Shown here: piece by piece, positions 4,486-64,000 of the stretch | Position numbering within the stretch: position 1 is the stretch's first letter | Layout of the letters: every line of letters begins with the position of its first letter | Assembly (NCBI GenBank): GCA_038025085.1 | Contig: CM076139.1 | Location: 48,526,807-48,590,806, forward strand | Length of the DNA: 64,000 nt | Direction of reading: 5' to 3' | Origin: Tetragonia tetragonoides | Lineage: Eukaryota; Streptophyta; Magnoliopsida; Caryophyllales; Aizoaceae | The notes under the pieces: model-generated | The model's input: the letters and a program-made list of their open reading frames with translations, nothing else | The model's database searches: none | Told to the model about the DNA's origin: nothing | Program-made: the position numbers and the translations under genes

Positions 4486-5045
4486 TAGGGATGGCAATGG
4501 ATCGGATTCGGAGCGGATTATGCTAAATCCGAATCCGCTCCGAATACTAATCGGATTCTATCGAATCTGAATAACCTCCGATTAGGGAGGATCCAAATCC
4601 GAAACTATTCTGAATCGGTAACCTCCAAATCCGATCCAGATCCGATCCGTTTACTCGACTTATTTCCAATTTTTTTTTTAAATGTGAACATATATAAGAT
4701 ATACTAAATAGCTAATTGTTAATTCAACAAAAATAAATATGGTAAATATATTAAGGATTTAAGATACAAATGAAGGCGAACATATATACTTAATTCAAAT
4801 ATATAAAGGATGTAGTGCTCTTTTTTTTTTTTTTTTTTTTAAATATTAAAAATAATTTGATATTCGGATCGAATTCAGAGGTGGATCGGATTCTGGCGGA
4901 TTTCACACAACATCCGAATCCAATATGAATCCGATTCGGATTCAGAGTTTGTTAATCGGATTCGGACTCGGATTTTTCGATTCGGATTCGGTACGGACTT
5001 TTTTTGGCTTAAACGGATCGGGTTTGGACTTGATTGCCATCCCTA
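4486..5045. mobile_element. hAT-type MITE, 560 bp
   Basis: Perfect 13-bp inverted ends TAGGGATGGCAAT / ATTGCCATCCCTA. Flanking 8-bp duplications differ at one base (CTTCCGAT at 4478-4485, CTTCCAAT at 5046-5053). The interior has repeated GGATTCGGAT-like motifs, many in inverted orientation, and a T22 run near 4820. It is inserted in the Copia-type LTR remnant. Confidence 0.85.
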
Positions 5046-12862: not shown

Positions 12863-13032
12863 GGCCCTGTTTGGCAATTGGCTGGTGACATTAGCTGTTG
12901 GCTGATGGTTGGTGGCTGGTGGTCGGTGGCTGGTATTGTTAGCTGATTTGACCGACTGGTAACATTGAATGTCTGGAAAGAGATGTCTGGTAACATTAGC
13001 TGGTTATATGTAAAATGACCTATAAGGACATT
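12863..13032. mobile_element. Left part of a MITE-like host split by the Copia insertion
   Basis: Starts with GGCCCTGTTTGGCAATTGGC and is rich in GCTGGT/TTGGCTG motifs. Its presumed other half (22819-23068) lies beyond the Copia element and ends in the complement of GGGGTGTTTGTATGTTGGC, only partly similar to the left end. That both belong to one element is inferred from position and the mirrored TTGGCT/AGCCAA motifs. Confidence 0.45.
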
Positions 13033-13226
13033 TGTTACGAGATCTACGATATTTCAGGCGTGACTTATAGAAAGTTCGGTTCCGCTTATTTATGGCAAGT
13101 TATCTTAGAGTTTGATATTGTTTAGGATTATTTCCATATACTAAAAGATATGTATAGTTACTAGGGCTGTATATATATTCCGTGATAATCAATACAGAAG
13201 TGATCTTTTCTGCCTCAAACTTGTCA
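13033..13226 (+). repeat. Copia 5' LTR (194 bp)
   Basis: Starts TGTTACGAGATC, ends AACTTGTCA, and is followed at once by the Met-tRNA primer-binding site (13227-13238). A TATA-like tract, GTATATATATTC, lies near 13170. Confidence 0.95.
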
Positions 13227-13700
13227 TGGTATCAGAGCATGAAAGATTCTTAAACAAACCCTAAACAAAAACTCAAAAAATCTTAAACCCTAAACAATGG
13301 CCGTGGAAGATCCACAACCACCAAATAAAATTGACTCAAAATCCCTTTATTTCCTAGGTCCTCAAGATCGACCTGGTGATTTTATTACTGCGCCCAGATT
13401 TAATGGCGAAAATTATGATGATTGGGCTGGTGAGATTGAGACGGCCCTTCAAGCTCGAAGAAAGTTCGGATTTTTAGATGGTACGATTGTATCTCCAACA
13501 CCTCCGTGCACACAAGATGATTGGAATACAATTCAAGCCATGTTGGTATCTTGGATTATGAATACCATCACAGCAGAAGTGAAGAGTACCCTGTCCAAGT
13601 ATAAAGACGCCAGGCGTCTATGGGAGACGCTTAAGGAGCGATTTGGTCTTACGAATGGACCATGCATACAACAATTAAAGGCGGCCATCTCTGACTATAA

Positions 13701-14001
13701 GGTGGTGTTTACTTGCTTACAATCAAATCTAATGCAATGCAATCATTTTATAAGGTAGATATGAGGTGGAAAAGGAAAAAGGGGAAGGAAAAAGATGGGA
13801 AAAGTGAGATTGATTACAGCATTCAAAGTAATCATCATTACATGTGAAAAGTTGAGCAATTGTGATTACATTGAATCATGCAATCAACTCCACTTTTCTT
13901 ATCCCACTCCTCTTATTCCTTCACTTTTCACCTCACATTTACTCTATAAAATGATATGATTGCATTGCATTACATTTGATTTCAAGTTAGTAAACGAGCC
14001 C
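13701..14001. mobile_element. Tourist-like MITE inserted in Copia gag
   Basis: 301 bp with long inverted ends: the left end holds AATCAAATCTAATGCAATGC and the right end holds its near complement. It is flanked by TAA duplications at 13698-13700 and 14002-14004. The gag reading frame is continuous across the junction once the insert and one TAA are discounted, which fixes the ends precisely. It is younger than the Copia insertion. Confidence 0.9.
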
Positions 14002-14186
14002 TAAGCAAACCAAATCCATGTCAGTTGCTTCTTACTATGGAAAACTCACGGCTCTATGGGAGGAATTGCATAACCATGATCCAACAAGGGAATCAGAGAC
14101 CCTCTTATACAAAAAAGTTCTCTCTCTAGAAAATGCTCTCTGGGCGCATGTTAAGCTGAAATGGCTAATTTGCACCACCGACATTA

Positions 14187-15279
14187 ATGGGGAAGAACAA
14201 TGGCAAGCGAGCTACCACAGTGCCACTACGAGATTTTCTGGGTAAATCAACATCATTAAAACCTATTAACGAAACTACTGATTCAGAGTTTTCTAAAGGT
14301 GAGGCTGAAGATTTGGGGGTTTATAGTTCACTTTCGAAGGGGCTACCGGGGTTTGAGGATTCAGGGCCGGATTTTTGCCCTAGAGCTGCTCGGAGGTTAC
14401 TAATGGTTTCGACACCACGGCAGGGTGGGTCTACACCTGGGTCAGCTGCTGTTACTCCGGTGGCGGCCATGGCTCCTGCTGCAACCCTCGTGGGGTACTG
14501 TTCCATTGATTCTCACCTGCGTCTGCATCACCAGCAAGGGTGGGTGATTCAACAGCCCCTGAGGTAAATCCTACACCTATAGATACTTATGCTACAATTT
14601 TGTCCAATCGTATTGCAACTAAGGAGATGAAATTGAAGTTTATTGCACCCGTTATTAAAGATGGAAAACCTATTGCAAAATTGCTGAAATCTGAAATTGA
14701 AAAGGAGATCAAGAAATGGGATACATCTTTAATTGGATTTGTTCTTGGAGATGCACCATTTTTTAGCCAAATGGAGAAGTATGTCTCTTCCCATTGGAAT
14801 TTGTGACCACCCCGAAGTGTTATCTTCATGAGGAAGGATATTTCATTTTTAAGTTCAATTCTAAATCTGATATGAATGAAGTTCTTGCAAGGGGACCTTA
14901 TGCTTTTAATTCAAAGCCATTTATTCTGCTTGAATGGCATTGTGATTTCAAAATGGATCATTCCTCATATAGACGTGTGCCTTTGTGGATTCAATTTCCC
15001 AACCTGCCTCTCCACTGTTGGTCTCTGGACTCCCTCAGCATACTGGGTAAGCCACTGCAGGTTGATAGAATTACAGTTGAGCAAGATAGAATCTCTTTTG
15101 CACGCCTTCTTATAGATGTAGATATCACTATGCCATATCCGGATGAGGTCTGGTTCCAGGATGATGAAGGAGCCATGGTGAAACAGAGTGTTCAATTTGA
15201 GTGGAAACCTGCTTTTTGCCAAACTTGCAGAAAATTTGGGCATTTAGCTGAACACTGTGGTACAAATACAATTGCTTAA
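14187..15279 (+). pseudogene. LINE ORF1 (DUF4283 / CCHC RNA-binding protein), frameshifted
   Basis: Reading starts at 14187 (MGKNNGKRATTV), moves to the 14540 frame and then to the 14794 frame, so two frameshifts break it. The middle piece holds the DUF4283 N-terminal part (KLKFIAPVIKDGKPIAKLL). The last piece continues through WHCDFKMD, VPLWIQFPNLPLHCW and a terminal knuckle CQTCRKFGHLAEHC. In L1 elements this protein binds element RNA. The segment 15280-15731 (ORF at 15397-15735) probably encodes its Ser/Pro-rich tail. Confidence 0.85.
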
Positions 15280-15731
15280 ACCACTGGGAATGCACCCCAA
15301 GGTAATCCTAATGCTCAGCCCAGGAGAAATAGGAGGAGAAAACATGTTTGTAGACCTAGACAAGAGCAAACTGGGATTGTAAACCAAACTCCCTCAATGT
15401 CTATGAATGATACAGCTGTTAATATTGCTAATGCTTCAGAGGTGAATGAGGAGCTGCAATTTCAGCTAATCCATTTAACAAAAACTTTTGAAGAGTTGAG
15501 ACGGGAGAGTATACCTCAAACACAGATTGCAGTGCCTGTGAGGAATTCTTTTGATATACTGCAGGATAACTCACAAGAAACTGGTGGAAATGTCCATGTA
15601 GGACAGGGTATCTCTATTATACTACAATCACCTGCTAGTTTTGGTAGCCACTCTGGTGTTGCAGTGTCTGTGGGAAAAGATAAGGACTTGAAGGGGACTG
15701 AGACAAGACCTCCAGATCCAAGCTTATCTCA

Positions 15732-18700
15732 ATGAAATTCCTCTTCTGGAATGTGAGGGGGTTAAATAAACCCCGAAAGCAAAGAGAGGTAAAGAAATTC
15801 TTACTAAAGCATGGTATCTCTTTTGCTGTGTTAGTTGAGACTAGAGTGAAGATTGCTAAAATGAGGAAGGTAGCTACACATGTGATGCAGCACTGGTCAC
15901 ATTTTTGTAACCATGACTTCTCGAATAATGGTAGAATTTGGCTTTTGTAGGATCCTTCTCACTTGAGAGTTGTTATTGAGAATGCATTTGATCAATATGT
16001 GCATGCTAAGGTTGAATTGTTAACTGGTGAAACTTTTTTCATTACTGCTGTATATGCTAGGAATTGTCCTATTGCTCGTGATAGATGCTGACATGATATT
16101 ATTGCTAGAGGTGGTAACCTCTTCTCTCCATGGTTAATTGGAGGAGACTTTAACTCTACTATGCATGTGTCTGAGAGGTTGCAAGCTGGTAACAAATTTT
16201 CTAGGACTGAGGAACTACAATCTTTATGCTCTACTTTGGGTGTGGAGGATGTTAGAAGTACTAGTTCTGAATTTACCTGGTGCAATAAGCAAGATGCTGG
16301 AGACAGAGTTTACAGTAGGATTGATAGAGTACTTGGTAATGGTGACTGATTTTCTACCTTCCCTGCAGTTGAAGTTGAGTTTCTGGTTTCCTGTATCTCT
16401 GATCATTCACCTGGCATTGTTCATTTCAAGAGAGATGAATACCAGGGGAAGAAACCCTTTCGTTTTTTCAATGCTTGGATTAATAATGAGTCTTTTAAAG
16501 CTACTGTGATTGAAGGATGGCAGTTTGGAGGGCCAGGATCTTATATGTACAAAGTGTTGCAGAAACAAAAAACTCTTAAAAATGCCTTGAAAAACTCTGA
16601 CATGTATCACTCTAGCATGGATACAAAGGTCAGAGAAGCTAGGACTGCAGTTGAGCAGGTGCAAACTACTCTCACTCATAACCTGTTTGATCAATCCTTG
16701 ATTGAACAGGAGAAAGCTGCTACTGCACAGTTGGAGAGGATACTACAGCTTGAGGAGCAATTCCTTAGCAAAAATCGAGAATTACTTGGGTAAAGACTGG
16801 TGATGCAAACACTGGGAAACTCCATGCTTGTGTAAAGACTAGAAGAGCTCATAACAAGATTATTTCTGTGCACACAAGTGAGGGTGTTAGACTCACTCAC
16901 CCTACAGATATTCAACAGGAGTTTCAAAAGTTCTTTAAGGGTCTAATGGGATCAGCAGCTGAGGAAATCTCAGCTATTGACCCTCAAATCATAGCAAATG
17001 GTAGTGTTCTTAGTGTGGAACAACATATTGCTCTTTGTGCAGAATTCTCTCCCCTTGAAATCAAGCAGGCTCTTTGGGAGATGGATGAGAACAAGGCACC
17101 AGGCCCAGATGGATTCACTGCAGCATTTTATAAAGACTCTTGGGAGGTTGTTGGGCAGGATATTATTCAAGCAATACAAAGCACTTTCCATTCAGGTAAA
17201 ATACTCAAAGCCCTGAATTGTGCTTCTATTACTCTTGTGCCTAAGAAAGAAAACCTCATGTTTGTAAGTGACTATAGACCTATAGCCTGCTGTAATGTTA
17301 TTTATAAGATTATGTCTAAAGCACTTGCAAATAGATTGTGTGATGTGCTTGATAGCCTTGTTAGCCCTGAACAATCAGCCTTTGTAAAAGGGAGATTCAT
17401 TGGGGATAATACTGTATTAGCACATGAGTTAATCAAGTTTTATGGTAGAAAAGGGCTATCTCCTAGGTGTATTATGAAAGTTGACTTGAGGAAAGCATAT
17501 GACTCCATTGACTGGAGCTTCCTTGAGCAAGTGCTAGTTGGCCTTCAATTCCCTATGAAGTTTGTTAGCTGATTGAAGATGTGTATCTGCACAGTTAGCT
17601 ACTCCATTTTGTTTAATGGTACACCCATGAAGCCTTTTGAAGCCAGGAGAGGACTGAGACAAGGAGATCTAATTTCTCCTTATCTTTTTGTGATTGTTAT
17701 GAAATACTTATCTAGATGCTTAAAAGATCTGAAGAACATGCCTGCATTCAAATTTCATCCCAGATGCAAAAAGTTTGAGCTGGTACATAACATTTTTGCA
17801 GATGATCTCCTCCTTTTCTCTGGAGGAGATGTTGCCTCTGTGCAGATGTTGTTTACTCAATTTAAAATGTTCTCTAAATGCTCTGGATTATGTGCAAATA
17901 CTAGTAGGTCAGAAGTTTATTTTGGTGGAGTATTGGAAAGTGACCAGAGAGATATCCTGCAAAGCTTGGGCATGCAAGCTGGGGAACTCCCTTTCAGATA
18001 TTTAGGAATCCCTCTCACATCCAAAAGATTCAATATTGGTTATTATGATCCCTTAATTCGGAAAATTACTAGCAGGATTAAGTCTTGGACCACAAAATTT
18101 CTATCTTATGCAGGCAGATTGCAATTGCTTAAGTCTGTGTTGTTTTCCATGAACAATTACTAGACACAATTCTTCAATCTACCTGTTGCTATGATCCACA
18201 ACATTGAGCAAGTGTGTAGAAGATTCTTATGGACAAGATCTGCTTATCCAAGTAGCAGGGCATTGGTGGCTTGGTCTGATTTGTGCAAAGCAGCTGCTCA
18301 GGGAGGTCTAGGCATCTTTGATCTGTCACTCTGGAACAAAGCAGCTCTTGGAAAATTGCTATGGGACGTACAACATCACAAAGAGAAACTTTGGGTCAAA
18401 TGGATCAATGCATACTACATAAAGCATGGTTCATTCTGGTCTTCTAGGAAGCCTGCACAAGCTTCTTGGTTGATCCAAAAAGTTTTTGATCTGAGAGGAG
18501 AGTTATCAGTGTCTATTCTTAACCAGAACCCTGTCAAATACAAAATGGGACAGGTTTACAGAACATTACTGCCCACTGCAGAGAAGAAACCTTGGGCTAA
18601 GCTGGTTTGGTGTCCTCTCTCAACACCAAAATGGAGATTCAATCTTTGGTTGTGTGTACTAAATAGGTTGCCAACCTGGAAGAACCTGCAGAAAATAGGA

Positions 18701-19092
18701 ATCCAAGGACCTGTGTGTGTGTTTTATGCCACAATGCTGAGGAAACTCATGAACATCTGTTCAGTGAGTGTGAGTTTACAAAAAAACTCTGGAGCCATAT
18801 GCAGACCTGGTTGCCCAGCCAGCAGTCTGCAGCCTGTTGGAGTGAAGCGTTAAACAAGGCATGTCTGAATGCTAGGAGCAAATCTGTACAGTCCAAGATC
18901 GCAACTGCTCTTTTTTCTGCTATGATTTATTTTATCTGGAAAGAGAGGAATGTTCGGATTTTTCAAGGTGCCATGAATGATCACAAGGCTATCAGTAGAA
19001 AAATCATTTCCATGATCCACTTCCGAGGAGCTGCTGCTAGAGATAGGAAAATGCAGGACTTTCTTGTCAAGTATTTGAATCATTTCCCATGA
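15732..19092 (+). pseudogene. LINE ORF2 (endonuclease-reverse transcriptase), broken
   Basis: Begins MKFLFWNVRGLNKP, the standard plant L1 endonuclease start, but hits a TAG at 15948-15950. Endonuclease sequence continues in the same frame (SRIDRVLGNGD near 16320-16349). RT follows in another frame from about 16868, with NKAPGPDGF, DYRPIACCNVIYK, KVDLRKAYDS, LRQGDLISPYLF and the active-site FADDLLLF near 17798. Further stops lie at 17570 and 18161. A zf-RVT-like region (KPWAKLVWCPLSTPKWRF) leads into a last frame ending at 19092. It cannot make a full-length protein. Confidence 0.92.
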
Positions 19093-22000
19093 GTTTTGGC
19101 TGTTGTTTAGTATGTTTTGTGAATGTAATAGTTGTTCCGTAGCTATGATTCTTCTGGTAGTTTGTTTTAACTAGATGAATTAGATAGCAGAGTATGGAGA
19201 GTGTGGAGAGGCAGTTTCATGTTGCTTATGTAATGATTGAATATCTCGTTGGAAGTAATAAAATATCTTTACTTTCCAAAAAAATAAAATAAAAAATTGC
19301 ATAACCATGAACCCTTGATTACCTGTTCTTGCTGTACAAAGTGTACTGCAGGCCTTGAATATGAGCGTCGCCGTGCAAAGGACATGCTTCATGAATTTCT
19401 GATGGGTTTATATACCCCTTCTTATGGTCCTTTGCGATAAAATATTCTTGCTCAAGATTCTCTCCCCTCTCTCAGCCGTGCCTACCAGCTAGTTATTCAA
19501 GATGAACGAGTCAGAACGTCTTTGGCTATGCCTGAGGAGAAATCCGACGTTGTTGGATTTGCTGTACGAATTAGTGGACACGACCAAGGCAAAATAGAGA
19601 AATCTGATAAATCACATCTCTCTTGCACCTATTGTAGGAAAACAGGCCACGAAGTAACTAATTGCTTCGAAATTCATGGATATCCAGAATGGTGGGAGGA
19701 TCGTGTGAAGTCTGACAGCGGATCAGGTATGACCAAAGTGTTGATTAGTCGTACCCAAAAATCAACGTCCTCTGCTCCTTCTCTTGCGACAGGACGTGGT
19801 CGAGGGGGGGTCCGTGCCAATGCTATAGTTGTTTCTGAACCTATAAGAGCATCATCTGCTCAATTATTTTCCGCTGATCAGTGGAAGGCGCTTGCTAGTG
19901 TCCTTGGTAATATGACGGTTTCCGATAATCGTTTGAGTGGTAAGATTAATGGTCATTCTTGGATTGTTGATACAGGTGCATCTAATCATGTTACTGGTAA
20001 TCTTTCTTTATTATTCGATGTGAAAGACATCTTATGTCTCGTTGGTCTTCCTGATGGCAAGAAAGTGGTTGCAACAAAGAAGGGCTCAGTGCGATTGTCG
20101 GATGCTTTGACTCTCACTCATGTTCTTTATGTCCCTCTCTTGAATTGCAACTTATTGTCCGTTTCACAATTGTGTGATGATTGGGATAGTATTGTCATTT
20201 TTAACCGATATATGTGTGCTATACAGGACCAAACGAGGAAGCTGATTAGAACGGGAAGTAAGCAAGCTAGACTCTACTACTTCAAGGGACCACAAACAGT
20301 GCAGGCTGTCACAGTGGACGCGGACGCTTCTTCTTTGGCTCTTTGGCATGCTAGGATGGGGCATCCTTCGAAAAAAGTAGTAAAGTTACTTCCTCAAGTT
20401 TGTAATTCTAAAGGTAGTTTGAATAAAGCTTGTGAAGTGTGCTTTCGAGCTAAACATCCCAGAGGCAAATTTCCTTTGAGTGACCATAAGGCTAGTCAGA
20501 TTTTTGAATTAATTCATATTGATTGGTGGGGTGGTTATCGTCATACATCTCCTTGTGGTGCTAGATATTTTTTGACTTTTGTGGATGATTTTTCTCCTTG
20601 GGTTTATTTGATGGATGATAAAACAAAGGTTTTTTCTAAATTTATGTCCTTTGTTGCTATGGTTAAGCGACAATTTTCTCAAACCGTAAAAATTGTTCGG
20701 AGTGATAATGGAACGGAGTTTCGATGTTTGCTTGCTTATTTTACTGCTTGTGGTATCCTATTCCAAACCTCATGTACTGGGATTCCACAACAAAATGGGA
20801 GAGTTGAAAAGAAACACAAACACATCCTAAATGTTGCCCGCACCTTGCGCTTCCAGTCCAATTTGCCTATTTATTTTTGGGGGGAGAGTGTTTTGACCGC
20901 TGCCCATTTAATCAATAGTCTTCCTTCCACTGTCCTTGACAATCTCACTCCTTTTGAGAAATTGTTTGGTTATTCTCTATCTTATGACGCCATTCGAGTG
21001 TTTGGGTCTTTATGTTTTGCCCACAACCAAAAGACAAAGGGTATAAATTTGCGAGTCGTAGCCGTAAATGCATCTTTGTTGGGTATCCTTTTGGTCAAAA
21101 GGGATTGAGGCTTTATGATCTTGATAAATATGAGTTCTTTGTGTCAAGAGACGTAAAATTCTTTGAAAATATTTTTCCCTTTGTTGACACGGAAGCTAGC
21201 AATATTAGGTAATCAATGGGTTTATAAGAGGAAATACCTCTCCAATGGAGATCTTGAGCGGTTAAAAGCTCGCTTGGTTATTTTTGGAAATCATCAAATC
21301 GAAGGCTTGGATTACTCTGAGACCTTTGCTCCTGTTGCCAAAATGGCAACCATTCGTGCCTTTTTACACATCGACGCTTCCAAGAATTGGGAACTTCACC
21401 AAATGGATGTTCACAATGTCTTTCTCCATGGTGATCTTGATGAGGAAGTTTATATGAAATTGCCTCCTGGCTTCACGTCCGCGGAGCCAAATCTGGTATG
21501 CCGTCTTCGCAAATATTTATATGGCTTAAATAAGGCACCCCGTTTTTGGTTTGCAAAACTGGTAACTACTTTGAAAGGGTATGGCTTTCTTCAGTCTTAC
21601 TCCAATTACTCACTGTTTACTCACACTAAAAATGGTGTGCAGCTCAATGTCTTGGTAATTGTTGATGATTTAATTATTTCTGACAATAATTCTGTTGCTT
21701 TAAGTGCTTTCAAGGCCTATTTGGGTGACTGTTTTCATATGAAAGACCTTGGTCAACTTAAATATTTTCTGGGTATTGAGGTAGCTCGGAGTACAGCTGG
21801 CTTATTTCTTTGTCAAAGAAAATATACTCTTGACATTATTACTGAGGTCGGCTTCTTGGGGGCAAAACCAGCAGATACTCCTATTGAGAAAAATCACAAG
21901 TTAGGCCATGCCATTGGTGCCAAACTTGATGATCTGGAATCCTATCGGCGCCTTGTAGGTCGTCTTGTGTATTTGTCTGTCACACGACCTGGCTTGGCAT

Positions 22001-22619
22001 ATTCGGTTCATCTTTTATCTAAATTTATGCAAGATCCTCATCAAGAGCATTGGGAGACCGCTCTACGAGTTATGGGTTATTTAAAGGGAACTCCAGGTCA
22101 AGGTATTTTATTGCGAGCTGACAGTGACTTATCTTTAAATGGATGGTGTGACACAGATTGGTCTGCCTGTCTCCTCATAAGGCGGTCCTTAACGGGTTGG
22201 CTGGTATTCCTTGGTCAATCACCTATCTCATGGAAAACAAATAAGCAAACTACTGTCTCAAAGTCTTCCGCTGAGAGAATATCGATCCATGGCTGCCATC
22301 ACTTGTGAGCTCAAGTGGTTGAAAGGTTTGTTATTAAGTTTTGGTGTTCATCATCCCAAAGCTATACCATTGTTTTGTGATAGCCAATCGACTTTACACA
22401 TTGCCCGCAATCCTGTTTATCATGAACGCACGAAGCATATTGAAGTTGATTTTCACTTTGTTCGTGATGCTATTACCGAAGGTCTGATTCTCCCATCGTA
22501 TGTTCCTACGACAGTGCAATTGGCTGACTTATTTACAAAGGTTCTAGGCAGGAAGCAATTTGATTTATTAGTCAGCAAGTTGGGCATCGTGAACCCCCAT
22601 GCTCCAACTTGAGAGGGGG

Positions 22620-22813
22620 TGTTACGAGATCTGCGATATTTCAGGCGTAACTTATGGAAAGTTCGGTTCCGCCTATTTATGGCAAGTTATCATAGAGTTT
22701 GATATTGTTTAGGATTGTTTCCATATACTAAAAGATATGTATAGTTACTAGGCCTGTATATGTATTCTGTGATAATCAATACAGAAATGATCTTTTCTGC
22801 CTCAAACTTGTCA
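22620..22813 (+). repeat. Copia 3' LTR (194 bp)
   Basis: Same length and ends as the 5' LTR, with about ten substitutions (mostly transitions). It is directly preceded by the polypurine tract GAGAGGGGG and followed by the ACATT duplication. Confidence 0.95.
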
Positions 22814-50395: not shown

Positions 50396-50665
50396 GGGTG
50401 TGTTCTTTTTTACTTATTTGGACCTTATTTAATCAGTGGAAATAAGTGTCTAAACCTTACATAATTAGTGCGAATCAGTTGCTGGACCTTACTCAATCAG
50501 TGGAACTCAGTGGTAGGACCCACATTCCTATTCACAAAATCAGTGGCAAGACCTTATTGAATAGTGAGAATCAGTGAAAGAACCTTACCAAATCAGTGGA
50601 AATCAGTGGCATGACCTTACCCATTTAGTGAAAATCAGTGAGAATAAGTGACAAAGAACATACCC
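50396..50665. mobile_element. MITE with internal AATCAGTGG repeats, 270 bp
   Basis: Inverted ends GGGTGTGTTCTTTTTTACTTATT and (read inward) GGGTATGTTCTTTGTCACTTATT. The interior repeats an approximately 30-40-bp word with ACCTTAC...AATCAGTGG(A)A about six times. Flanking trinucleotides are GTA and TTA, so the duplication is uncertain. Confidence 0.72.
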
Positions 50666-58533: not shown

Positions 58534-59911
58534 CAGCCTGTTTGTTATCAGGCGGCCCTATGATATAAGGCGGGATAACGACTAGACACGCGCGCATTTG
58601 CTAAGTCTGGCACGCGCGTTTTGTTCTTCTTTTCTTTTGTTTTTAAATTTTGACAGCGAAACACATCAAATATTTAAAAGTTTCTTTGATTAATATTTGC
58701 CTTCCGCCAGCCTAGTGGTTATTGGCCCAACTGATTCCGTTGCCTTGGTTTCGAATCCCATGCTCATCCCATGCCACTAACTTGTTTCTTTTTCCTAATA
58801 ATTTTTTTATGAAACTTTTTCCTTATTTTTTTGATTCACTTTTATTGAAATTTATTGTTTTGATAAAATGAAAGAGGTAATGAGACTCAGCCTTAAACTT
58901 TTATTGTGTACGAGTGGGAGATCTTTTTACTTTATGGTCTCAATCTTTTATGCTATAGTGTTAGTTTATTTTGAATTTTTTTTTAAAGAATTGTTGTCAT
59001 GACACCTTGTTGCCTTATGGTGTCAGCTTATTTGATTGTAGTGTCATTTTACTTTGTTGTAGTGATATTTTTTAAAAATTTGGTGCTTGTTTATTTTTCT
59101 CTGATATCATTTGGGGGTTATAATAGTGTCACCTTTTTACTTAATAGTCTCAATCTTCTTATGCTGCAGTGTTAGTTTATTTTGAATTGTTCTTTTTTTC
59201 TTTGAGAATTATTGTCATAACACATTGTTGCTAATTTAATTGTGGTGTCATGGTATTTTGTTATAGTGATATTTTTTAAATTTTGTGATCTTTGTATATT
59301 TTTCTCTGATATCATTTTAGAAAGTGTTGTAGTAGTGTCACATTTTTACCTAATGGTGTCAGTCCTTGTTGCTACAGTGTTAGTTTATGATATAAATTTG
59401 TTTTCTTTTATGGTAATAGTTTTTTGAGCTCAAGTGTTAGTTTATCCGCTTGTGGTGTTAGCATTTTTTCTAAATTATAACATAACTTTGTTGCCAATTT
59501 ATAAAAGAAGAATTAAAAGGGACATAAGACAAAGTTCCTTATTTCAAAGCTACTGTACAATCTCCTATCACTCCCACACAAGGAAATCTGAATTGCTCGG
59601 TCGATTGCGAAAAGCGAGAAAATTTTTGATGAGTAAATTGTCTGGCAAGCCGCCAAATCTATATAGGATTTGTGATTGTGAGTTTTGGTGATGAGCCGTA
59701 GTGGTGAATTGGTGATGATTGAAGGTGGCGATTGACTGGTGGTGGCGGTGGAGGGTCTGGGCATGTCGGGAGAAAATGGAGAGAGAAAAAGAACATGCGG
59801 GGATGGACGATGGAGAAATAGTGCAGGGGCGCGTGTCTAGAAACATAAGAGGTGGACCTGTGATTTTCTCCGCCCTACACGAGATAGGGCGGCCGCATAT
59901 GAGTATTTGTG
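58534..59911. mobile_element. Mutator-like non-autonomous element, about 1.38 kb
   Basis: Flanked by the 9-bp duplication TAAAAAGAT (58525-58533 and 59912-59920). Both end regions share GCGGCC...CCTAT, GGCGG and CTAGACACGCGC in mirrored order (58551-58610 versus 59835-59897). The interior holds a SINE-like word pair (58709-58755) and a 210-bp tandem repeat. Small ORFs at the right (59434-59946) overlap on both strands and match nothing known. Confidence 0.75.
58924..59440. repeat. About 210-bp tandem repeat, about 2.5 copies
   Basis: TTTTTAC followed by (T/C)(T/C)AATGGTGTCA-like sequence and CAGTGTTAGTTTAT recurs at 58924, 59134 and 59343 (periods 210 and 209). TGATATTTTTTAAA and TTTTTCTCTGATATCATTT recur in step. 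It lies inside the Mutator-like element. Confidence 0.85.
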
Positions 59912-59954
59912 TAAAAAGATTATACAATTGGTCCACCATACATTAAGTCCACAA

Positions 59955-60159
59955 TGTTATGAAACAATTAGAGAGATAGAGAGTAGAGAATAAAGAGGAG
60001 CAAAAATTGTCTGTATTATTCACATGAGGGATATATATAGTACAAGAAAGACTAGTGTTTTGCTTGCAGAGCAAGAACCCTAGTACAAGATATGGTAAGT
60101 ATCTAGCTATTGTATTTCTACAGTATATTGTATATCCACATATAATATATTTCATAACA
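59955..60159 (-). repeat. 3' LTR of a minus-strand Copia element (205 bp)
   Basis: The termini are a perfect 10-bp inverted pair, TGTTATGAAA / TTTCATAACA. On the minus strand a purine-rich AATGGGGAG (60160-60168) directly precedes it as polypurine tract, and TATATATA (about 60030-60037) would be its promoter box. The other LTR must lie beyond the window's right end, so the duplication cannot be checked. Confidence 0.85.
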
Positions 60160-60191
60160 CTCCCCATTGGATGTACATCACTAGAGAATAT

Positions 60192-60755
60192 GCCTCGTTA
60201 AAACCTTACTAGGAAAACCCAGTGGGATAAAAACCTAGTGAAGGAAAAAGAGTACATTATTCTTTAATACGCGTGAGATACGGCCTCATTAAAAACCTTG
60301 CCTGGAAAACCCAGTGGGACAAAACCATGGCTAAGGGAAAAAGAGTGCAGCGCGTATTTTCTTCCCCTCATGACCTTATCCTACTAGATCTTCAAGTCGA
60401 TTTAATTGTGATCTTCAGTAGGACATGTCTTCTTACTTGTGTTGACTCCTGCATGCTTAAAATATGATTCCAACAATCTTCATATTTCCCTTGAATATGA
60501 TGTATACAACTTTCATTCGTGTCAATATCATTTCAAACAATTATATATCCAACAAAGGGAGACATTAATATGGAACTCTCTAAATTTCATAATATCCTTG
60601 TTATGCTGCCTCGTTAAAAATCTTGTTAGGTAAAACCCAATGGGATAAAAACCTCAACGAAGGGAAAAAGAGTACAACCACTATTTCACCAAAACCTTTG
60701 CTAGGAAAACCCGATGGGAAAAACCTACGCAATAGGAGAAAAACATGAAGTGCGT
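60192..60755 (-). repeat. Four copies of a Copia 3'-end repeat, about 65-70 bp
   Basis: On the plus strand the block reads CCTCGTTAAAAACCTT, then GGAAAACCCAGTGGGA, then AAAACC, then AAGGGAAAAAGAGT. Copies start near 60192, 60284, 60609 and 60681, the last being the most diverged. Spacing is irregular (92, 325 and 72 bp). Confidence 0.88.
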
Positions 60756-61013
60756 AAAGTCTCATCTTTTAATAGCAATTTCACAATATATGAGCAATTT
60801 CCACAATTCCAAACCATTTAACATAAGCCTTCTTCGGGAGGTCTTTAGTAAACCTTCTACCTGAGGTCAATATCTTTCACTGCTCATATTTTTCATATCA
60901 TCATGAAATATTTGTAATTTGAAAATGAGAGTCAATATTCTATGGTACTTCAGGACCATAAGAATCACCTATTTCATATTCATGGTACTTCAGACCATAG
61001 ATATCTCACTATC

Positions 61014-61049
61014 GAATATCACCAGCAACTCATCATATAGGTGATATTC
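61014..61049 (-). repeat. 10-bp perfect stem in the hairpin field
   Basis: GAATATCACC (61014-61023) pairs exactly with GGTGATATTC (61040-61049) across a 16-base loop. Confidence 0.88.
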
Positions 61050-61844
61050 ACATCAACTCTCAACCTTTGTAATCTATAAATTGTATAACTCATATGCTCA
61101 AACTTCTGGTTGAGACGATAATCAATTCATTCAAAATTCTCTTACAGAGATTTTGTATCTTGCATCACGTCATATCCAAATTGTGAATGTTAAACAACAA
61201 TATATCTTGTCTTATTGTCATTGATTCATGTACCTTTGTAACTTTAAATATCAGAGGTTCATATAATTTTAGAATATGCTCTTCAGGAGCTACTTATTCA
61301 AATGTCCATATATGTCATTATACATATCCAACCAGCAAGGCATTTAATCAAAGTCCTTCTGGGACTATATATCTTCAATCCTTCTGGGATTTGACATAAC
61401 ATAGGAGTAAACATCTCCTTTTATAGGTTTCCGCCTATGAAATATGTAGTAATTAACCTACAAAACTACATTCCAATGAAAATGTGTGCATGCATTATGA
61501 GATGAAAATAATAAATTAGTAAATGTTAAATAAATAGAAATAAGATATAAAATATAGTGACATGTATGATTTATAACTTATAATTTATATGCACACAATG
61601 TACGACTCGATAATGTAAACTGTACAGATTGGATATCAAATCCATAAATCAGTTGGACTGCAGGTCCATGAGCTCATTTCAAATTACAACATGACGACAT
61701 TTAGATGGACTTTACATATATGATCCCCATTCATATGTCCATCGCATCTTGCATATGCATATCGGTTCCTTCATATACCGGTAATAAAATTTTAAACGTT
61801 AAAATCTTATAATCAACTTCATTTATCCATCAGTACTGGAAAAT

Positions 61845-61915
61845 GATATCTGAATATTTTCTTAGGAGGTACCTTTTCCTTTTCTTTATAGGCCATCTTT
61901 TGTGATTCAGATATC
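61845..61915 (-). repeat. 11-bp perfect stem in the hairpin field
   Basis: GATATCTGAAT (61845-61855) pairs exactly with ATTCAGATATC (61905-61915) across a 49-base loop containing GGTACC. Confidence 0.85.
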
Positions 61916-61996
61916 CATACCTCTTCAGGGGTATTTATAAGCTATAAAGCTTGTTTATAAATCATAACTCTTCAAGAGTATCAACCAAACTGCACG

Positions 61997-62114
61997 ATCT
62001 TGCCATGTTTGTATAATAGACTTTCATTAGGAACCGATCTCCAATTGATTTGAATGAAAGTAAACTCAATAGACTACACTTCAGGTGTATCAATTTTAAC
62101 ATGAATGGCAAGAT
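61997..62114 (-). repeat. Nested three-stem structure in the hairpin field
   Basis: An outer 10-bp stem (ATCTTGCCAT 61997-62006 with ATGGCAAGAT 62105-62114) encloses a 9-bp stem (ACTTTCATT 62020-62028 with AATGAAAGT 62053-62061) and the TACAC-TTCAG-GTGTA hairpin (62075-62089). That gives a possible three-way junction. Confidence 0.8.
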
Positions 62115-64000
62115 ATCTCAATTCTCACAACATGAATCTCTACAACCAATCTATGCCTCGATATGCCTCCCAAAGGGTAGTCATAGTTGTGCGACAGTCA
62201 AATCATAGAGTTTCATGCTTGAATATAGAGAGGTTTGAAATAAAGCTGGTATATATGTATACGTGTATATGAACCTCAAGTTTATATCATGTCCTGAACT
62301 TCTGGTTCAGACGGGGATCAAAATTCTACATACTTAATGTATGTATTTGTTTTCTTCAGCTTTCCTCTACTATTCTCCCCCTAAGCTGAAAAAAACCTAT
62401 CTCTCATGGACAGTTATAAATGGGCATTTCATTGCATTGAAATCCAGCTTAGATCCACTAGTTTCTCATCTTCTCTCGATAAGTTTCACTTTATTAGCTC
62501 TCTAGTGGAGAATAATAATTCTGGGGAGTACACGTAATTGCAGTTGGTTATATTTGTGCTCATATAATTTGCCCCATACAAGAGATCAAAATATTGTCAA
62601 AACGCTCAAAACGTACTTTATAATGAACTTACATAATGCAATGCAACTCATCTTTTAAGTGATCTTGTGGCCACTTAATCTCAATTTATACAAGTTGCTA
62701 TCAATATCTCGTCTCTTTTCGAATCAAACTAATTTATTGTTCGAAACTATATATACATACTCCATCTCGTTGTCAGTCTTGCCTTTAAACCTCATATTAA
62801 TAAAACACGAGAGAGTAGGAGCACATTATCATATATGTATTCAAGAGAAACTTCAGGTTCTCGGAACGGGTGTCTTCATACCCGGATGGCCTAAACTGTC
62901 ACATCAACAAAATATTTCACATCACTAACTTCTGGTTAGTTTTTGCTCAATAATAATCAACTTTGACATAGTCATTTACACGTGAATTTGGCCAGATGTA
63001 TGATGTGATAAAGACATAACTTATGTCTCTTTAATAATGGCAAGACGATCTCATTTATTCTTCCAGGGAAGATAGTTGATGCTCTTGTAAAGCATGTTCT
63101 CATCTTATTCATATAAATACCCATGGACATTATCTATCAGTTGGATAGATTTTCTTTATTTATGCATAAGTCCATTGTCATAGTAAAAAGCATATGAGCT
63201 TATTTATCTCATATTTGAATCATGTCATTACAATTCACATTCTATCTCCCCCTTTTCCGTACACGCGTAGTAGGAAAAACAATAATACAAAGAACAATTA
63301 GAGTATTGTCATAATCAATATACTTATTATGTGGGGGTACAAGCTTCAGGCTTGTAAATATAAAGTATACACATATTTTTCCACTTAACTTTGAACTTCT
63401 GGCCAAATATTCATTTCATCATTGTATTATCCAAATTGAACATGCAACTTTTGGGGGTTTCTAACCCAAGTTTTATAAATTGTATACTCAAGTGGGTAAC
63501 GATGTCAATCTATAATCATGAACTTCTGGTCATGATAATTATACCATAATTTCTCATTTATTTAATCGGAGATACCCTGTTAGTAATATTTAGATCACTA
63601 TCAATAACTTATATCAATCTCCATGATCAACTTTGGATTTCAGGCCAAAGGATTGTTTCTTCCTTGTAAATATTTACGAAACTCGACACATTTTCTTTGT
63701 GGGACTTCTGGCCCAAATTTCATGAACTAGTGGTTCATGTATTCAATATAACATCAATATAATCATGAACTTCAGGTCATGATTGTGTTATCATCCAATT
63801 TCTATCGCATTAAGATACTCATTTTTGTGATCTGCAGGATCAACATAAATAATATTTCTTAGCTATTTCTTAGCTAGGGTTTCATAATAAGCTATTGTTA
63901 TTTGTTCTCCAAAATATATCATTCTCATTTCATACAGAATCTCACCACTGTATTTATTCCATCAATATAGACTCTTGAATTGTGTTACATCATGAGTCAA

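Follow-up and report, generated by a model that had tools for sequence, protein, structure and literature searches.

The window analysed here, a stretch of 64,000 nucleotides from Tetragonia tetragonoides (contig CM076139.1), ends in the 3' internal region of a long terminal repeat (LTR) retrotransposon on the minus strand, and this region carries an array of short hairpins that combine a constant loop with free but complementary stems and all lie in one orientation. The same feature was found in a related Copia element with genes, here called L014, where it occurs in several codon phases beyond what synonymous codon choice would lead one to expect. We consider it probable that the hairpins follow one design, selected on the folded RNA of the element and read by a protein through loop and shape, with a role in Gag function as the leading candidate.

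The heptamer CCWGAAG was found 15 times in the element sense (minus strand; CTTCWGG on the plus strand) in 60160-64000, spanning 60954 to 63776, and 0 times in the opposite orientation within the same region. Dinucleotide shuffles of 60160-64000 contained 0.41 motifs on average (maximum 4, n=1000). Thirteen of the motifs were flanked by a stem of at least 4 Watson-Crick pairs, against a mean of 0.018 in the shuffles (maximum 1, n=1000); shuffled sequence, which the initial annotation had proposed as the yardstick for the number of same-loop hairpins, thus fell far below the array. Elsewhere in the window one strand had 8 motifs and the other 5 (13 in total), with 0 stems of at least 4 pairs. 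When G-U pairs were allowed, the stem reached at least 4 pairs in 14 of the 15 hairpins and at least 3 in 15 of 15, the arms being complementary in every member over 3-8 pairs, and comparison of the four loop-adjacent bases distinguished 14 stems. Two registers were observed: the arms touch the heptamer in 7 hairpins and start one base further 3' in 8 (seven U and one A in the sense strand; 7 A and 1 T on the plus strand).

Pairing of the arms was specific to each hairpin. The summed paired runs amounted to 78, against 23.9 (standard deviation 6.3, maximum 50, n=20000) when the 3' arms were re-dealt among the loops with the same choice of register as the real hairpins. A look-elsewhere comparison over 7-base loops with one free position gave a best family of 13 members here and of at most 4 in 300 Markov sequences; in the other window bins (plus strand, up to 57615) the best loop family had at most 3 members in 14 of 15 bins, the remaining bin being an AT microsatellite with 32. 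CCAGAAG (8) and CCTGAAG (7) were the most enriched 7-mers, with 0.2 expected each, and hairpins with any loop of 5-9 bases reached 71 overlapping counts against 31.3 (maximum 53, n=200). Chance or low complexity as the origin of the array was ruled out by the shuffles, the re-dealt arms and the look-elsewhere test. Flanking sequences differ from member to member (ungapped matches averaging 18 of about 60, with 29 in the best case), which excludes that a larger unit was duplicated in tandem; the sole evident pair is 63511-63547 and 63758-63794 (84%). No Rfam family reached its gathering score in 59900-64000, where the 5 matches with E up to 5 stayed far short of it, and a known RNA family was therefore rejected as the identity of the array.

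All members lie on the minus strand. The eight hairpins of the bulged class have the loop CCUGAAG+U at 60940..60961 (stem 7, one G-U), 62845..62862 (stem 5) and 63761..63784 (stem 8), CCAGAAG+U at 61097..61114 (stem 5), 63390..63407 (stem 5, with a loop-adjacent G-U that is A-C on the other strand, and marginal energy), 63515..63536 (stem 7) and 63700..63715 (stem 4), and CCUGAAG+A at 61917..61934 (stem 5). The seven of the unbulged class have CCUGAAG at 61278..61290 (stem 3), 62075..62089 (stem 4) and 63338..63356 (stem 6), and CCAGAAG at 61352..61366 (stem 4), 61377..61391 (stem 4), 62293..62311 (stem 6, one G-U) and 62924..62940 (stem 5). Near-variants of the loop (CCTGCAG twice, CCTGAAA, CCACTAG and a shortened CTGAAG) raise the array to about 18-21 members. 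On the same strand we located CCUGCAG with stem 4 at 63828..63842 and 61654..61668, CCUGAAAU with stem 6 at 63631..63650, CCACUAG with stem 6 at 63721..63739, CUGAAGU (one C fewer) with stem 5 at 60982..60998, and a possible variant with loop AUGAAGAC and stem CGGGU/ACCCG at 62867..62884. Two or three loop mismatches brought in a large background elsewhere (12 and 50 matches). The initial annotation had described some sixteen same-loop hairpins with stems of 4-8 bp, all different, and a bulged A in at least six. The array itself held up, with 15 exact members and the higher number given above when near-variants are included; 14 of the 15 stems are distinct, while the range is 3-8, as the stem at 61287 has 3 pairs and that at 63402 pairs only via G-U; and the bulge is present in 8 of 15, its base being T rather than A once on the plus strand.

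When the members were aligned by class, the bulged hairpins had 97.5% of cells paired over five pairs and the unbulged ones 96.4% over four. These two alignments (A2 and A3) hold all 15 members split by the better-pairing register, a choice that favours pairing; an alignment with both registers mixed (A1) was 67% paired. Covariation within the array was 1.293 against 0.274 and 1.429 against 0.295 in the two registers, values reached by 0 of 500 shuffles each, and every stem pair varies on both sides in each class. Sliding the partner out of register lowered pairing to 28-53% (bulged) and 14-43% (unbulged). The counts of pairs changed on both sides were unexceptional (reached by 72 and 177 of 500 shuffles), as were the further pair types in the unbulged class (46 of 500). 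A covariance model (R1) built from 14 of the 15 hairpins, with 63402 omitted, recovered 15 of 15 and discriminated poorly, its best outside match (44280, 15.9 bits) scoring above 5 members. Single hairpins in the window have energies of -0.4 to -7.5 kcal/mol, and in the predicted folds the open loop has five or eight bases in 14 of 15 cases; 63711 alone closes an inner C-G pair.

The element that carries the array was recognised by its 3' end. A 205 bp LTR lies at 59955..60159 (minus strand), its ends TGTTATGAAA...TTTCATAACA (TG...CA) and a TATATATA stretch being read directly; its orientation follows from the polypurine tract CCAATGGGGAG at 60160..60170 (minus strand), which adjoins it, is likewise read directly and aligns with L014. 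Both parts of an LTR-type 3' end are thus present. Because the LTR is preceded on the minus strand by the purine tract, the sequence from 60160 to the window end is the 3' internal region of an LTR retrotransposon; the element runs off the window end, and its 5' LTR falls outside. The longest minus-strand frame in 60160-64000 is 57 amino acids, so at least 3.8 kb of the window element is non-coding. A tblastn search with the pol and gag of L014 detected no gag or pol of that type in 60160-64000 (best E 0.35), and this, together with the short frames, rules out that the array is decayed gag-pol. The initial annotation had spoken of a Copia 3' region; the coding sequence of the window does not show Copia, and Copia gene order, with integrase before reverse transcriptase, is seen in L014, the window element showing no pol. 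Beside the LTR, at 59026-59408, there is a diverged, T-rich tandem repeat of period 204 with GTGTCA/GTGTTAG words.

L014 (NZ_QPKJ02000023.1, 5601 bases) is filed under Solirubrobacter sp. CPCC 204708. Its 37% G+C and its proteins indicate that it is evidently plant retrotransposon DNA, presumably present as an assembly contaminant. It came from a scan of 19 contigs for the motif, found through the core of the composite hairpins described below (11 + 1 in viral_contigs, 7 in genome_contigs): L014 contained 15 CTTCWGG on its plus strand, 11 of them with a stem of at least 4 pairs, while each of the other 18 contigs had at most 1 such hairpin per strand. As judged from sequence, L014 is related to the window element through the purine tract and the composite repeats, this LTR-proximal stretch being 72% identical over 228 columns. 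In L014 the pol shows gag-pre-integrase, integrase (rve 250-341), an SH3-like domain and RVT_2 (725-968) in Copia order, and the gag is copia-type; among the best 120 of 583 pol relatives those named by organism are nearly all eudicot (Rhododendron, Prunus, Linum, Coffea and Helianthus among them), with a best near-full-length identity of 73%. No further DNA relatives were detected in viral_contigs, searched with two pol proteins and one alignment, nor in phages, and the between-element comparison rests on this one related element. A plasmid search gave three distant Copia-like records (26-33%), which were taken as controls. Two small linear 'plasmids' filed under Kitasatospora/Streptomyces from rhizosphere soil, NZ_CP115454.1 and NZ_CP115302.1, encode a Copia-like reverse transcriptase 32-33% identical to the L014 pol and are possibly misfiled eukaryotic DNA. 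At one hairpin, L014 1580-1597 and window 60941-60958 have 18 identical bases (E 0.002); four stem words are common to both elements, by estimate not clearly beyond chance.

In L014 850-5601 we counted 13 CCWGAAG against a Markov mean of 0.52 (maximum 3, n=400), and 9 with a stem of at least 4 pairs against 0.010 (maximum 1, n=400). The gag-pol frames contain 17 CCNGAAG, with summed runs of 60 against 22.9 after re-dealing (maximum 46, n=20000), distributed 7/3/7 over codon phases 0/1/2; the motif at 4871 can be assigned to phase 1 or 2, as two frames overlap there. Given the protein and its own codon usage, 5.6 motifs and 0.19 hairpins would be expected where 17 and 9 were seen, and with the motif fixed as well as the protein, the expectation is 0.96 stems of 4 or more pairs, again against 9 seen. 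A peptide repeat as the source of these hairpins was ruled out for most of them, since all three phases are represented and 10 of the 17 motifs are not in the Pro-Glu phase. Four Copia-type controls (the three plasmid records and the other Copia-type element of the window) showed 0-5 motifs per strand scanned and 0 hairpins. The proposal of the initial annotation that structure and loop are kept while the stem is free agrees with the pairing and covariation within the array, and with the L014 gag-pol hairpins, which exceed protein and codon expectation in several phases.

Four further hairpins stand in tandem beyond the LTR of L014, at 25, 90, 154 and 219, with the stem TCTCTT/AAGAGA and the loops CCCGAAG (twice) and CCAGAAG (twice). 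The LTR-like segment, 441-627 (TATTGT...ACAATA), has the purine tract on one side and on the other TTATCAGCACGAGG, which we take to be a Copia primer-binding site. If that assignment holds, the contig possibly passes through a single LTR into a 5' leader, and 1-240 would be leader sequence carrying the four tandem hairpins. Retroviral packaging signals lie in the leader.

Taken together, the design consists of a free stem of 3-8 pairs, the constant loop CCWGAAG and, in half of the members, an extra unpaired 3' base, and the related Copia element has this design too (as CCNGAAG), across gag-pol and in the tandem repeats beyond its LTR. It is probably preserved by selection that acts on the RNA of the element in its folded form. 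The constant loop on free but complementary stems points to a reader of a loop on a short helix, presumably a protein that contacts loop and shape rather than stem sequence; such recognition would be the natural conclusion from the sequences. Since the hairpins occur in coding as well as non-coding parts, they would seem to serve the RNA as a whole. Sense RNA is the probable acting strand, because the hairpins keep to one orientation in the window and mostly do so in L014, and because they overlap coding sequence in the latter; one hairpin that requires a G-U pair argues weakly in the same direction, and G-U against A-C as a strand test (3 G-U, 1 A-C over 17 motifs) involves too few pairs. Among the roles proposed, packaging gains from the element-wide spread and from the possible leader hairpins of L014, and we give a Gag packaging or assembly signal, the leading role, a somewhat less than even chance. 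The Gag of this lineage might bind the hairpins multivalently, thereby picking out the RNA of the element and condensing it into virus-like particles, much as happens with the dispersed packaging signals of RNA viruses, and the window element, non-coding as far as seen, is perhaps a derivative that keeps the array for packaging in trans. More tentatively, and with doubt prevailing, the array may represent a new cis-code of retrotransposons, in which hairpins of constant loop and free stem extend from the leader through gag and pol to the 3' region in a Copia lineage widespread among eudicots. In the coding region they would be written through synonymous sites, Gag would use them to recognise and condense its own RNA, and non-coding derivatives would keep the array so as to be packaged in trans. 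If true, the idea of dispersed packaging signals would be carried over from RNA viruses to LTR retrotransposons. The array offers a directly mutable packaging candidate, in which loop, bulge and stem can be changed separately. In barley, separate RNA pools for translation and packaging have been reported for BARE (PMC3735527). RNA selection by plant LTR retrotransposons looks open: a passage search of a 2025 review of host factors gave 0 occurrences of the term 'packaging signal' (PMC12786077).

Several observations weigh against selection on a Gag-read sense RNA. Compared with shuffles of their own bases, only 7 of the 15 hairpins reach the 5% tail or go past it, and 63402 is marginal. Summed over the 15, the antisense strand is the more stable one (-85.7 against -72.2 kcal/mol), so that the sense strand is not favoured; folding of both strands against controls, as the initial annotation had suggested, placed the array region below Markov controls on both (z -2.98 and -3.31). 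In the L014 frames 8 of 17 motifs fall short of 4 Watson-Crick pairs in the stem. The protein largely accounts for the 7 phase-0 motifs (Pro-Glu codons) as motifs (0.75 each), though not for their stems. Finally, the packaging signal proposed for Ty1 lies near the 5' end and has low specificity (PMC8396678).

Ranked second to Gag, and in our estimate unlikely, is a host RNA-binding protein that acts on stability, export, translation or decay of the element RNA, or for which the hairpins are a host mark. The long non-coding part of the window element would fit such a reader, although an element would hardly preserve a host mark, least of all inside its coding region. Loop-led recognition has a precedent in yeast Rnt1p, which prefers short stem-loops with NGNN tetraloops and needs the first five pairs for cleavage (PMC4334505). 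The NGAA inside CC[NGAA]G fits NGNN provided that an inner C-G pair closes the loop, a fold with a bulged C that the array sequence permits and that was predicted in 1 of 15 cases (63711). Plant RNase III enzymes are not known to have such a loop preference, which counts against this protein class as the reader. The invariant CC before and G after the tetraloop, the short stems and the plant host also set the array apart from Rnt1p substrates (PMC4334505), and the Rnt1p class may serve as a lead for the array loop, not as a class to which it belongs.

Other explanations dispense with a protein reader. Reverse transcriptase can copy one arm of a hairpin into the other by template switching, and complementary arms could arise in this way by mutation, with no selection on pairing. 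Most stems are indeed perfect though unrelated in sequence, and the flanks of the members are unlike; yet a single constant loop would be left unexplained, and in L014 the process would keep altering codons of a conserved protein (for example in the LKRGR and IPEGF stretches), which makes it quite improbable. It is also improbable that the hairpins act as single-stranded DNA while reverse transcription proceeds, with which the comparable folding of both strands would agree, or through loop-loop pairing of CAG with CUG that joins two genomes. The window loops do comprise 8 CAG and 7 CUG versions, but the two do not clearly alternate along the array (10 changes in 14 steps), three-base kissing is weak, and the code is weakened by a third base of C (4) or G (2) among the 21 L014 motifs and by one C among 16 in the window. 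Stems acting as sources or targets of small RNAs are the least credible of these alternatives, a very improbable one: they are far below the length of a microRNA precursor and contain no conserved sequence to act as guide, against which stands the correlation of local secondary structure with small RNAs in maize genes and elements (PMC10760457).

To our knowledge no such hairpin array has been described in an LTR retrotransposon, and among the titles and abstract openings listed in the literature searched, with most subscription papers outside its coverage, none describes one. Smaug/Vts1 recognition hairpins present a small CNGG-type loop on a sequence-free stem; the array loop likewise starts C-N-G on a free stem and differs in its fourth base, which is A and not G. 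The dispersed packaging signals of phage MS2 and satellite tobacco necrosis virus (STNV) are, as in the window and L014, many scattered stem-loops with a common motif along one RNA; in MS2 they contact the coat protein (PMC4751978). Those capsid contacts were cross-linked, while the array is known from sequence alone, and the MS2 signals are degenerate, while the loop of the array is nearly exact (PMC4751978). Like the array, the Sirevirus RMs (Bousios et al. 2010) are many short palindromic repeats in plant Ty1/copia elements, located in LTRs or upstream of env, but in them a single sequence recurs at 66.5-100% identity, stem as well as loop, and 12 of 13 have a CGG-CCG core (PMC2829016). The array with its 14 distinct stems among 15 and constant loop is the converse of this; the CGG-CCG core is absent from all 15 hairpins, and CCWGAAG occurs 0 times on both strands in the 3' LTR 59955-60159, so there is no LTR clustering. 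The Ty1 packaging signal is, similarly, a cis-acting structured RNA of a copia-class element that is read by Gag, although it is a single proposed region including a pseudoknot rather than an element-wide array (PMC8396678).

Near the purine tract, four repeats contain a constant module, GG-TTTT..CCCA-YY-GGG-TTTT-(A)CC, between outer arms that differ. These composite hairpins (all minus strand) lie at 60204..60244 (module GGTTTTTATCCCACTGGGTTTTCC, 60212-60235; outer stem of 8 pairs with one bulge), 60300..60331 (GGTTTTGTCCCACTGGGTTTTCC, 60304-60326; 4 pairs, bulged A), 60623..60657 (GGTTTTTATCCCATTGGGTTTTACC, 60629-60653; 4 pairs, 2-nt bulge) and 60698..60732 (GGTTTTTCCCATCGGGTTTTCC, 60704-60725; 6 pairs, bulged G). 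Scored for pairing of their own outer arms they gave 6, 4, 4 and 8, against 0-4 for the twelve mismatched combinations. Two of the four can be aligned to L014. Of their 12 pairs, 6 are the same in both elements, 3 differ at both bases without losing the pairing (plus-strand letters: A-T to G-C, G-C to A-T, G-C to T-A) and 3 do not pair in this alignment. The block 60160-60800 folds no better than controls (z 0.81). With n=4 copies, a second hairpin class with constant module and pairing outer arms is suggestive only.

The other Copia-type element lies on the plus strand and is bordered at either end by ACATT; it has LTRs at 13033-13226 and 22620-22813 (194 bp, 94.8% alike), TGGTATCAGAGC following the 5' LTR, and an internal part at 13294-22308. 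Frames at 14767-18853 of the long interspersed nuclear element (LINE) type of reverse transcriptase split its gag piece from pol, as if a LINE had inserted. Hairpin-region positions 61299-61336 match 12999-13034, at the left edge of its LTR (33/38, two gaps), and the match does not extend. Two genes mark the window as plant DNA, one with a DPBB_1 domain, presumably expansin-like, and one of the RING-H2 type. Ranked by E-value within the best 120 of 2197, the top named relatives of the latter come from Opuntia (61%), Acorus (46%) and Beta (55%), and on this evidence Caryophyllales is a likely, though not a certain, origin. The window also contains about 7 tandem copies of a diverged 32-base unit (50420-50640).

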